Virus record (IMG/VR): IMGVR_UViG_3300046006_002975
Span: 1 to 64,000 of that record
Source: a virus
Reading direction: 5' to 3' (one strand)
DNA: 64,000 bases
The notes under the pieces are model-generated. The model was not told the DNA's origin. It made no database searches and saw only the letters and a program-made list of their open reading frames with translations. Positions 5,933 to 56,082 of this stretch are shown one piece after another. Position 1 is the stretch's first letter. Each line of letters begins with the position of its first letter. The translations under genes were made by a program, and so were the position numbers.

Positions 5933-5960
5933 AAAAAGGGAGCTTCGGCTCCCTTTTTTT
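5933..5960. terminator. Bidirectional terminator between convergent operons
   Basis: Stem GGGAGC / GCTCCC closed by a TTCG tetraloop (5938-5953), flanked by five A on the left and seven T on the right, so it can work on both strands: after gp32 on plus and after the tape-measure gene on minus. The same hairpin recurs at 55235-55260. Confidence 0.93.
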
Positions 5961-8868
5961 ATGCTTCATGAGTATTGGTTCTCCACATATTGCCTTCTTC
6001 CATCATTTTTATAGTTGGGTCGTCATTTCTAACAGGAGGCACTGATTTTGCTACCCCAGGATTATTTCTTGGAGGAGCAGCAGCTTGTTGCTGCGCTTGT
6101 TGAGGAGCTGTTTGGGTATTTCCCCCTCCTTGTTTCATATTTTCAATACCTTCTAGGTATTCCTTGCTTCCTGTAATATTATTACGCCTTTCATTTAACG
6201 CTCCCATTTCCGTACTAATATCTTTTATGCGGTCTTCGTCTTTATTAAATTGTTCTCCGCTAACATTAACTGCCATACTTATGTTTTCGCGTTCGCTTTT
6301 TAAACTAGCCTTTTGCGCATCAATATCCCCAACTTCAGCTTGCATATCATCCATTTTAGAATTAGGAACTGGAGATGCTTTATTAGTCGACAACTTTTCT
6401 TCATTAGTTTTAGCGCGGTCAGCAGATAATTTATCTTGTCTTTCGTGTATGCTATCTGTATCTTCGTCAAAAAATTCATATTTTGTTGAATTCATTTTAT
6501 CAACTGCATCATTTAATAAATCAACTTGAGATTTATTATTATCTGGTCCAGTTGTATTTGTTACATTAAGTTTTTCTGAATCTGGAACATCGCTGTATGA
6601 GACAGGATTTTCTTGACTGTTTGTTTCTGTATTTAATGAAAAATTATTACTTTCATCTGGGTTATAAGATGCATTAATAAAACCTGTATTATTTGGTTTT
6701 TCTATTTTAGTTATTGGTGTTGATGTTTTAGATTTTGATGCAGTTTGTATTTCATCAGATGGAGCATCCCCTACTTTTTTCCCATATGTCGCATAGTGAT
6801 CAGCTAAAGCTTTTCCATATCTAGAACTAGTTGCATACCCAGAACTGCCCATCTCAGCAATAGCTTGCTCTGGGGTTTGAGCTTTTAATGCTTTATCGTA
6901 TCTTTTAATTTTATTTTTCTCTAGAAAGTCAAATCTATCTTTAACAGAATCTTCTTCGGATTTATATCCTCTAAATCTAGATTTTTCTTTTGACATTTTA
7001 CCGTTTCGTTCTTCTGGTGATGATAATTCACCAGTAGGGTCTGTAGTTCCTTGCCCTTTACCTGAATATTTTATACCGAATAAATTATTTTTAGGAACGT
7101 GATGCCCTCCTCCAGTCTCTTCTATGCTTTGTGATGCAGCTAAGTGAGCTTGCGCTTCCGGATTTTCTAAACCTCTTTGTTTTGCTTCTTTTAAAGCTAA
7201 GTTGTAAACTTTATCGTAATGTTCTTGATAATCTTTATGAGGGTTTTTAGATTTATTCCCCTTAATCGGCTCAGCAGTTTTTTCTGACCCACTAGCTGCT
7301 CCAGAATAAGCTAAACCTGCAGCTGCAGCTCCACCAACAGCCGCTCCTTTCAGAACTTTACCAACAGGAATTTTACTTAATACTTTACTCCAAATTCCTG
7401 AGCTTTTTTCGGATTCTTCTTTATTTAAATCTACGCTCTCTCTTTCACCGCCACCGAAAATTGGAGATGCGGAACCTCCACCACCGCCACCTTCGTTTTG
7501 TCTTGCGCGTAAATTTTCAGAAGATAAATCTCTAGCAATATCTTGTTGAGATTGACCCTTAACCATAGCTGATACGTCTTTGGAAATTCCAACTACAGTG
7601 TCATATGTTTTGGATAATATACTATAGATACTGTTTAAAACTTCAACGGCAGTTTTACCCGACATATCACCGCTACCAAAATGACTTTCTCCAGTTGTTC
7701 CAGAATCTCCTCCAGAGGGCATTGAACTTAATGTAGCTTCAGCTGAATTACCTGCTGGCATTAGAGCTCCCATACCTCCCGCGACACCTCTAAATGGAGA
7801 ACTACTGCTACTTCCAACATATGCTCCTAGTGCTGCTCCAGGAATTTTTTCTCCATACTCGCCAAGTAATTCTTTGCCTTTATTTTTTATTTTATCCCAT
7901 ACGCTTTCATCTGTGGTGCCTTCTATAGCACCTTTTAGTATATTTCCAGCTTCATCTACTAATCCAGGAAACTTTTCTGTTCCTGCGTCAACCAATTCTT
8001 GAGCTTTATTTTTTGCAGCAAGTTGATCTTCTTCTGATAATGTATTGTAAATTCCAGCTCCGATTCCAGTAGCAGCAGCTCCATACATGCCACCTTTAAG
8101 TACACTTTTTCCTAATGTTTTTCCTTCTGATAAAACTTGACGCCCAACAAATTTTCCGGCACCTGCTGCAGCGCCTCCTGCTTTATCTCCCATCCATTCT
8201 AAAGTTCTTCTGATATATCCTTTTTTATTTGGAGTAGTTTCGTCTTTAACTTCTTCTTTGGCTTTTTCAACTAATTTTTCTGTATTACTTTTAAATGGCG
8301 TAGATTGTTTTCCTGCTTGCTGTCTTTGTTGCTGTACATATTCCTGAGCTTTTTTCTGTGCTTCTGCTTCTTTTTGAGCAGTTGCTGCAGCTTTAGCTTC
8401 ATCTGCCAATTCAGTTTCGCTTTTAAATACATTACTATATTTTTTTAAAGAAGGAAGTTTTGATCCAATTGCTTCTGCTCCTCCTTTAAATATAGATCCA
8501 CCAAGTTTTAACCCCCCTTTAACAGCAGCTCCACCAACAGCAAGTCCTGCGACATCAGTACCAAAAGAAATTAATGCTTTTCTTTGATTATCAATAATTT
8601 GTTGGTATTCTTTTTGACCTCCAGAAGCTCCGCCTAATTGAGCTGCTTCAACAAATCTTTGAGCATCATCTGCATTTGAAATCTTTTTTAATTGCTCTTG
8701 TTGTCTTGAGGTAAGCAAATTTGCTTTTGTTTCCCTATCAACAATATGTTGTCGTTCTACGCTATTCTTTTGAACCCTAGATAATTCTTCTTTTGTTTTA
8801 TCGTATGCGCCAACAGCAAAATCTTTTGCGCTATCTAAAAATGATGAACCTGAATTATTATTTTCCAT
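5959..8868 (-). CDS. Tape-measure/baseplate hub protein with glucosaminidase domain
   Basis: Codes for 969 residues. The N-terminal half has long Ala/Gly-rich, hydrophobic segments (AVGGAAVKGGLKLGG, GAAVGGAAAAGLAYSG) and coiled-coil tracts rich in Lys, Glu and Gln, as in tail tape-measure proteins. Residues about 541-700 form an FlgJ/GH73-type glucosaminidase-like domain: LAASQSIEETGGG with the likely catalytic Glu near 583, NNLFGIKYSG and SSGYATSSRYGKAL. The gene follows gp26 and the gp51-like ORF, the usual place for tail chaperones before a tape measure. I infer a gp29-like tail-length protein that also carries the tail peptidoglycan-cutting activity, since gp5 here lacks its lysozyme domain. 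An alternative reading is a hub lysozyme only. Confidence 0.7.
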   Translation of the reverse strand: MENNNSGSSFLDSAKDFAVGAYDKTKEELSRVQKNSVERQHIVDRETKANLLTSRQQEQLKKISNADDAQRFVEAAQLGGASGGQKEYQQIIDNQRKALISFGTDVAGLAVGGAAVKGGLKLGGSIFKGGAEAIGSKLPSLKKYSNVFKSETELADEAKAAATAQKEAEAQKKAQEYVQQQRQQAGKQSTPFKSNTEKLVEKAKEEVKDETTPNKKGYIRRTLEWMGDKAGGAAAGAGKFVGRQVLSEGKTLGKSVLKGGMYGAAATGIGAGIYNTLSEEDQLAAKNKAQELVDAGTEKFPGLVDEAGNILKGAIEGTTDESVWDKIKNKGKELLGEYGEKIPGAALGAYVGSSSSSPFRGVAGGMGALMPAGNSAEATLSSMPSGGDSGTTGESHFGSGDMSGKTAVEVLNSIYSILSKTYDTVVGISKDVSAMVKGQSQQDIARDLSSENLRARQNEGGGGGGSASPIFGGGERESVDLNKEESEKSSGIWSKVLSKIPVGKVLKGAAVGGAAAAGLAYSGAASGSEKTAEPIKGNKSKNPHKDYQEHYDKVYNLALKEAKQRGLENPEAQAHLAASQSIEETGGGHHVPKNNLFGIKYSGKGQGTTDPTGELSSPEERNGKMSKEKSRFRGYKSEEDSVKDRFDFLEKNKIKRYDKALKAQTPEQAIAEMGSSGYATSSRYGKALADHYATYGKKVGDAPSDEIQTASKSKTSTPITKIEKPNNTGFINASYNPDESNNFSLNTETNSQENPVSYSDVPDSEKLNVTNTTGPDNNKSQVDLLNDAVDKMNSTKYEFFDEDTDSIHERQDKLSADRAKTNEEKLSTNKASPVPNSKMDDMQAEVGDIDAQKASLKSERENISMAVNVSGEQFNKDEDRIKDISTEMGALNERRNNITGSKEYLEGIENMKQGGGNTQTAPQQAQQQAAAPPRNNPGVAKSVPPVRNDDPTIKMMEEGNMWRTNTHEA

Positions 8869-8871
8869 TTA

Positions 8872-9012
8872 TTAAATATTCCTATTAGCTTCTTGCTGCT
8901 TACGTTTCTCTTCTTTTTCTTTTAAATACTGTATTAATAAACCTATATAAATTTCCCTTTCCCAAGGGATCATGTCTTCCAGCTCAGTTAAACTATACTT
9001 ATGGTGTTGCAT
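8872..9012 (-). CDS. gp51-like small hub assembly ORF (possible frameshift extension of gp26)
   Basis: Forty-six residues from ATG 9012 to TAA 8872, ending three bases before the tape-measure start. The product, beginning MQHHKYSLTELEDM and continuing IPWEREIYIGLL, is charged and helical; the ELEDMIPWER pattern is like the small protein annotated gp51 (hub assembly catalyst) in marine T4-like phages. No Shine-Dalgarno sequence precedes the ATG. The frame stays open upstream of it for 21 codons, with protein-like sequence (NLTTYYKTNFSL), back to a run of seven T in gp26, and has no ATG, GTG or TTG there. Synthesis by -1 frameshift from gp26 is therefore plausible. Confidence 0.6.
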   Translation of the reverse strand: MQHHKYSLTELEDMIPWEREIYIGLLIQYLKEKEEKRKQQEANRNI

Positions 9013-9062
9013 TAATGAAAAGTTAGTTTTATAATAAGTTGTAAGATTAACATTACCAAGAA

Positions 9063-9788
9063 TTAGATAAAAAAATCAAAAATATCTCTTACTTCAATAT
9101 GATGATCAAAACCGCATTTTACACATACAATATCTAATTTTTTAATTATTTTAGGCTCATTAGCAAAGAATTCTTCTATTTTTAAATATTGTTCAATTGG
9201 TAAATCGCCCAACCATGCTACAATATTTTGTACTGGTATATCTTTTGTATTATATACTGAATTTTCATCATAAATAAACTCAACATTTCTTGCAATAATT
9301 TCAAGCGTTTCTTCTGGAGTAGGAATCTTATCTCCAATTTTATTATGTTCTAATCTTTGATATTTTAACTTTAATCCAACTTTATCTGAAACTTCAATAG
9401 TAGAAGAAATATCAGATTTAGTAGTTTCCAATTCTGTTAATAGATTTAAATCGTAATCCATTACATTATTACATGTTCTTCCATCTTCTAATATATTTTC
9501 GCATCTATATTTTAATTCAACAATTTCCGACTCAGATCTTGCTCGTAATTGATAAAATAAAAATTCAGTATCGCTGATTGATAACTCTTCAGTATCAATT
9601 GAATCTAAAGTACAATTTGAGATTATTTGTTTTATTGCATCTACTAATGTATTTGGGTCGCCAGATTCTTTTCCCATTGCTAAAATTTTTTGTTCTCTGA
9701 CAGTATATGGTCTGTATTTTACTGTTAATTCTGAAACAGGTAATTTGACTGTATATACTGGCGATTCAATTTTTGGTAAGAAACTCAT
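9063..9788 (-). CDS. 26: gp26-like baseplate hub/tail assembly protein
   Basis: Codes for 241 residues (T4 gp26 has 208). LKYRCENILEDGRTCNN and IVCVKCGFDHH hold four Cys placed as a zinc site, and KYRPYTVREQKILAMGKES near the N-terminus is typical of the T4 baseplate gp26 family. It helps build the baseplate hub; by position before a tape-measure gene it also corresponds to a tail assembly chaperone. The gene ends GAT-TTT-TTT-ATC-TAA: the run of seven T just before the stop is a possible slippery site. Confidence 0.72.
   Translation of the reverse strand: MSFLPKIESPVYTVKLPVSELTVKYRPYTVREQKILAMGKESGDPNTLVDAIKQIISNCTLDSIDTEELSISDTEFLFYQLRARSESEIVELKYRCENILEDGRTCNNVMDYDLNLLTELETTKSDISSTIEVSDKVGLKLKYQRLEHNKIGDKIPTPEETLEIIARNVEFIYDENSVYNTKDIPVQNIVAWLGDLPIEQYLKIEEFFANEPKIIKKLDIVCVKCGFDHHIEVRDIFDFFI
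9069..9075 (-). promoter_or_regulatory. Candidate -1 ribosomal frameshift site T TTT TTT
   Basis: Read on the minus strand, gp26 ends in codons GAT TTT TTT ATC TAA. The heptamer T TTT TTT has the X-XXY-YYZ form with both TTT codons in the gp26 frame. Slipping back one base gives TAT CTA ATT CTT and enters exactly the open frame of the gp51-like ORF, making a product of about 305 residues. Whether it works is not known. Confidence 0.5.
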
Positions 9789-55272: not shown

Positions 55273-56082
55273 TTAGAAAAAACTATCTAAATCAAAAGAC
55301 GTGGATCTTTGATATTTACCTCCACTGGTATCTCGTAAACGTAATTCAGCATGACCTGTAGTTTCACGAACATATTTTGTACATAAATCAGGAAATCTAC
55401 GAACCAAATCATCAGCACTTTTATCAATACGCTCAAGAGTTCGTTCAACTTGCATTCCTCCATCTTCAGTATAATATTTTGATATAACAGTAATATTATC
55501 TAATCGCGAAACTGACCCATCAAGAACATAATGTTGAAGAGTTCTTTCAAAATCTTCTTTGTCACATAATTGAACCATACGATCTTGATGTTTATCGTTA
55601 ATGCAGCCCCACAGCGACCCAATGCAGTAATATAAACCAGTCTTAGGGGTATAACTCATAAAAAACGCATTCGACGCTGCATAGACACCACAGAGCTTAT
55701 TTTCGTTCTCCTGCATAATATTATACATTGGCTCAAATACTTCTTTATGGATATCTTCAATTGGCTCCATTTTCTTTTCATCAGCAGGAGCTTTGCGCAT
55801 AATACTCGATAAATCATCATCAAAATTTACAACAAATTCCCCCTCATCATAATAATTTCTAATAAAGTTTCTAATCGGTCCCATACCAACAACGCCTACA
55901 ACAATATTTTTGTTATAAATGTTATCTTTTAATGATGTTTCGTATGCAGTCTTTTCGACATCATTAGCAACAAAGATTGTTACTGTACTTGGATCTACAT
56001 TATATTTCTCCAATACACTTAAAGTTTTATCTCTAAGCGTATCAGATCGTTTATACGAAGGAATTGCAATATTCAATTTCAT
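55273..56082 (-). CDS. TAGT-like glycosyltransferase (DNA base glycosylation candidate)
   Basis: Codes for 269 residues. A GT-A fold is suggested by the start LNIAIPSYKRSDTLRDKTLS, the strand TVTIFVANDVEK and FVVNFDDDLSSIM, in which Asp88-90 would hold the metal and nucleotide sugar. The overall pattern resembles the TET/JBP-associated glycosyltransferases described computationally in phages. Twelve hundred bases away on the same strand is a TET/JBP-type dioxygenase, so a sugar on a hydroxylated base is the likely product. It has its own sigma-70-type promoter (56122-56150) and is not in the late class. A different sugar acceptor, such as protein, is possible. Confidence 0.7.
   Translation of the reverse strand: MKLNIAIPSYKRSDTLRDKTLSVLEKYNVDPSTVTIFVANDVEKTAYETSLKDNIYNKNIVVGVVGMGPIRNFIRNYYDEGEFVVNFDDDLSSIMRKAPADEKKMEPIEDIHKEVFEPMYNIMQENENKLCGVYAASNAFFMSYTPKTGLYYCIGSLWGCINDKHQDRMVQLCDKEDFERTLQHYVLDGSVSRLDNITVISKYYTEDGGMQVERTLERIDKSADDLVRRFPDLCTKYVRETTGHAELRLRDTSGGKYQRSTSFDLDSFF

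Follow-up and report, generated by a model that had tools for sequence, protein, structure and literature searches.

A predicted -1 ribosomal frameshift joining gp26 to a 51-like reading frame ahead of a probable tape measure gene in an uncultured phage lineage

The DNA analyzed here, referred to as the window, comprises 64,000 nucleotides with a GC content of 32% and corresponds to positions 1 to 64,000 of the IMG/VR virus record IMGVR_UViG_3300046006_002975. On its complement strand a gp26-like gene is followed by a small gp51-like open reading frame (ORF), and the question raised by this locus is whether the small ORF encodes a separate protein or the C-terminal end of a longer form of gp26. 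A sequence-only reading had proposed that a -1 frameshift joins the two ORFs, and this proposal is supported by a conserved slip site, its phase, the open -1 frame and colinearity with T4 gp51. As judged from sequence comparison, the two ORFs very probably constitute one tail assembly chaperone gene that is expressed in two lengths via -1 ribosomal frameshifting, with the 51-like domain occurring only in the fusion.

The gene pair and its slip site

The features of the locus, all on the complement strand, are:

9063..9788, gp26-like short tail assembly chaperone form (TAC-N), 241 aa; PF12322 and phrog_150.
9069..9075, in-phase -1 slippery heptamer T TTT TTT (T TTT TTC in most relatives); its six T columns do not vary among 20 aligned junctions.
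9063..9065, 0-frame stop TAA, one codon past the slip site; the one-codon spacing is also found in most relatives.
8872..9069, -1 frame extension (TAC-C, 51-like domain), 65 residues plus stop, predicted to be translated solely via the frameshift; phrog_634, alignment of relatives and codon-position bias.
8872..9788, predicted fusion (TAC-NC), 305 aa (240 + 65); T4 gp51 aligns across the junction.
5959..8868, 969-aa gene for a probable tape measure protein with a glucosaminidase domain; position after the chaperone pair and PF01832.

The gp26 protein belongs to the T4 gp26 family, as profile searches match it to PF12322 (E 1.2e-46, 159.6 bits, cutoff 24.5) and phrog_150 (E 5.8e-50), and homologues are present in 872 phage records (E 1e-5). 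A PDB fold search with the predicted gp26 model (pLDDT 90.6) returned no significant match; the highest match probability was obtained for the HK97 tail chaperone 2ob9 (prob 0.54), but with an E-value of 1.7 this is not significant. The -1 ORF matches phrog_634 (baseplate hub assembly catalyst) with an E-value of 6e-29, and the 51-like extension can be aligned across 27 relatives. The 5' neighbours of gp26 are, by profile matches, a tail-tube-like gene and a gp2-like end protector gene.

The gene downstream of the pair is a probable tape measure gene by position rather than by profile match. The only clear profile matches of the 969-aa protein are to a glucosaminidase (lysozyme-like) domain near residues 572–695 (PF01832, E 3.1e-16), with no tape-measure profile match, and when the two were compared as single sequences, it showed no homology to the protein annotated as tape measure in Cr30. 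The equivalent genes after the pair in Cr30 and ValKK3 do have tape-measure profile matches. The sequence just 3' of the 51-like ORF differs between contigs L005–L007 and contig L008, yet their gp26 proteins are identical (100%), which hints that the next gene has been swapped among close relatives.

As described by the earlier reading, gp26 (complement 9063–9788) ends in GAT TTT TTT ATC TAA, and the T TTT TTT heptamer at complement 9075–9069 is in phase for tandem -1 slippage. This places a slip site of the X XXY YYZ type before the 0-frame stop, as in gene pairs of the lambda G/GT type. From 9075 the -1 frame is open and reads FF YLILGNVNLTTYYKTNFSLMQHHKYSLTELEDMIPWEREIYIGLLIQYLKEKEEKRKQQEANRNI up to a stop at 8874–8872, so that the junction peptide of the predicted fusion would be ...DIFDFFYLILG.... 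In-phase T TTT TTN heptamers occur 11 times in the approximately 21,000 ORF codons of the window, and two of these lie at most five codons from a stop. In a window of 32% GC the heptamer by itself proves little, whereas the comparative evidence exceeds chance. A second gene of the window, at complement 55273–56082, also carries an in-phase T TTT TTC directly 5' of its stop; no frameshift is suggested there, because an ordinary terminator hairpin follows the stop.

Conservation and coding selection at the junction

Relatives of the locus were collected from viral contigs and annotated phages, yielding 123 loci, whose 89 distinct junctions fall into 23 gp26 clusters (60% identity); the clade next to the window's uncultured lineage is 72% identical in gp26. 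The comparison of related genomes proposed by the sequence-only reading shows that, Ackermannviridae aside, almost all relatives have kept the T-run, its phase and the upstream residues. An in-phase T TTT TT(T/C/G) lies 0–9 nt 5' of the gp26 stop in 20 of the 23 clusters, mostly exactly one codon before it, and in all 20 the -1 frame is open into the same 51-like domain. The six Ts form the longest invariant block in the alignment of 20 junction sequences, and residues F239–F240 are invariant in 29 of 29 gp26 proteins. Furthermore, every member of these 20 clusters has a T before the two phenylalanine codons and TTT as the first of them, even at 75% GC3. Calculated from each gene's own codon usage and multiplied over clusters, the chance of this is approximately 10^-3.3 for the T and 10^-5.4 for the TTT codon. 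DLP_6 keeps TTT as the first codon although TTT makes up 8% of its phenylalanine codons.

The frame break falls within a T run, an error-prone place in sequencing, and could in principle be an assembly or sequencing error in one continuous ORF, or the small ORF could be a decayed remnant. Both readings are extremely improbable, since the same frame relation recurs in five IMG/VR contigs with 100% identical gp26 and in all distant isolates, and since the -1 ORF is under coding selection.

This selection extends upstream of the first ATG. The first in-frame ATG of the small ORF (complement 9012–9010) lies inside the conserved domain and no Shine-Dalgarno match was found before it, in agreement with the initial claim that the ORF lacks a usable start. 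The protein-like sequence that had been noticed upstream of this ATG consists of 16 codons whose evolution is that of a coding sequence read in the -1 frame. From the gp26 stop up to the first ATG, mismatches in the -1 frame concentrate at third positions in the S-PM2 cluster (1727 versus 726 and 444), the P-HM1 cluster (104 versus 42 and 14) and the window clade (90 versus 69 and 35), these pair counts being descriptive only as the pairs are not phylogenetically independent. Mean amino-acid identity over the stretch before the first ATG is likewise higher in the -1 frame than in the other two. A conserved -1 ORF of this kind, without a usable start and coding 5' of its first ATG, is a further property of the lambda G/GT type.

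The main rival to frameshifting is that the 51-like ORF is translated as a separate protein by termination-reinitiation at or just past the gp26 stop. An ATG, GTG or TTG near the stop, which could permit reinitiation, is present in about half of the clusters, with stop-start overlaps or near-overlaps such as TGATG (Cr30, RHph_I46), TAATG (ValKK3, PP35) and TAAGCATG (S-PM2), and the S-PM2 record annotates gp51 from its near-stop ATG; the junction peptide of the predicted fusion in this phage is ...SFFRISMFYNNLENYY.... However, neither the window clade (all 8 distinct sequences) nor six other clusters have an ATG, GTG or TTG before the conserved core, the -1-frame residues are conserved 5' of the first ATG, the slip run is retained even in phages that have an ATG, and T4 gp51 holds both domains in one chain. 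Reinitiation as the origin of the 51-like product is therefore unlikely; it is plausible as an addition in those relatives with an ATG near the stop, and in the window clade it would not proceed via a canonical start codon. As far as the sequence goes, a restart at ATT (TAATT) is conceivable.

The canonical slip run is lacking in Ackermannviridae (ATT TTC), in Vibrio phage D492 (CTT TTC) and in Acinetobacter phage AB1I1T, where gp25 comes after gp26. The sequence-only reading had named relatives with their own ATG and no in-phase slip run as what would speak against a frameshift; among the relatives with a 51-like ORF, such a combination is found only in Vibrio phage D492, with an ATG and A CTT TTC at the slip position, and in Dickeya phage PP35.

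In Ackermannviridae (L031, L032 and L033) the 51-like -1 frame lies directly after gp26 and is often unannotated, the only trace of a slip site being ATT TTC; this junction is matched by 279 phage records. The Klebsiella and Salmonella members have no start codon at the gp26 stop (TAATT), whereas Dickeya PP35 has TAATG.

Signals around the slip site and the predicted mechanism

Compared with synonymous shuffles, the 60 bases 3' of the slip site form stronger structure in 16 of 20 clusters (mean z -1.16, p 0.0003), and two control stretches showed no excess structure in the same test. S-PM2 has a long hairpin downstream of the slip site and P-HM1 a CCCTC/GAGGG stem. In the window clade, however, a downstream hairpin was not found (-1.6 kcal/mol, z +1.28), so that in comparison with a stimulated -1 site of the dnaX type this clade lacks an element that is present on average in its relatives. 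The upstream Shine-Dalgarno-like stimulator of dnaX-type sites seemed to have a convincing counterpart in cyanophages, in the form of GGAGGG approximately 10 nt upstream, but it does not exceed the level expected from the encoded residues and codon usage: such elements show no excess over synonymous randomisation (mean fraction 0.45).

The same fusion could also arise if RNA polymerase added a base to some mRNAs on the T run. The window clade, with seven consecutive Ts in AT-rich DNA, would favor such transcriptional slippage, but most relatives have only six Ts followed by a C, and the runs usually needed for polymerase slippage are longer than six Ts. As the downstream hairpin and the strict codon phase also fit ribosomal slippage better, we regard a transcriptional origin as very unlikely.

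From this arrangement we infer ribosomal slippage, its rate and a chaperone role for the products. Most ribosomes would terminate at the gp26 stop, yielding the 241-aa TAC-N, and a minority would shift to the -1 frame on U_UUU_UUU, read past the stop and yield the 305-aa TAC-NC at a low level. By analogy with lambda gpG/gpGT, the short form would coat the tape measure protein, and recruiting tail tube subunits would fall to the few long forms, the long form thus bridging tape measure and tail tube in the manner of lambda gpGT (PMC5009743).

T4 and other tail assembly chaperones

T4 carries genes 26 and 51 separately, on opposite strands. A profile of the predicted fusions aligns with T4 gp26 over positions 11–237 (E 1e-29) and with T4 gp51 over positions 75–282, across the frameshift junction (E 1e-14), reaching residue 246 of T4 gp51. 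The extension, which also matches phrog_634, is thus homologous to the C-terminal part of T4 gp51. Conversely, the first 201 residues of T4 gp51 match PF12322, and almost the whole protein matches phrog_150. Going by these alignments, T4 gp51 corresponds to the fusion, occurring naturally as one chain across the junction, and T4 gp26 to the short form. T4 therefore encodes the short and long forms as two separate genes and, because these lie apart on opposite strands, does not frameshift here, whereas the window, from an uncultured lineage, would use a frameshift for the same gene pair. In the abstract of their study, Vladimirov, Gautam and Davidson reportedly describe the frameshift as conserved among several T4-like groups and genes 26 and 51 as those used by T4.

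We tentatively consider, while holding it to be rather doubtful, that Kyanoviridae, Schizotequatrovirus, Angelvirus, Pootjesviridae and uncultured lineages all inherited a single frameshift site, that individual lineages acquired or dropped the hairpin, and that in Ackermannviridae the slip site degenerated to ATT TTC. The same fusion would then be produced via different recoding signals and, in T4, via gene duplication.

A 2016 review lists T4 as the exception to G-T frameshifting (PMC5009743). The sequence-only reading assumed that a frameshift is not the standard description for T4-type gp26/gp51, and in this respect it has to be corrected, as such a description has existed since 2022, when the tail assembly chaperones of T4-like phages were identified (Vladimirov, Gautam and Davidson 2022, Virology 566:9–15). 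Passages in later papers credit that study with poly-T -1 slip signals in the TAC-N genes of T4-like phages (PMC12846349) and with T4-like phages that have separate short and fused long genes (PMC10885494). The window shares with lambda gpG/gpGT the two overlapping ORFs and the -1 shift, here a predicted one, directly before the tape measure gene, here a probable one (Xu, Hendrix and Duda 2004; PMC5009743), but its slip site is a pure U run; the likeness is one of arrangement. In the TAC-N/TAC-NC pairs of Vandenendeviridae and Andersonviridae, TAC-N likewise carries a poly-T slip motif close to its 3' end, and the -1 frame is uninterrupted (PMC12846349); their motif is GTTTTT, they belong to other phage families, and they resemble the window locus by arrangement.

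The frameshift idea for T4-like chaperones was thus already published in 2022, and the window represents a further, well supported case. Added here are the synonymous constraint on the slip site, the structure downstream of it in relatives and the missing hairpin in the window clade, which may or may not be new compared to the 2022 paper. The analysis indicates that gp51 of many T4-like environmental phages, unannotated or annotated separately, is the C-terminal part of a frameshift fusion, and hundreds of records would have their annotation corrected accordingly. Furthermore, the contrast between a frameshift here and two genes in T4 offers a handle on how phages set the ratio of short to long chaperone.
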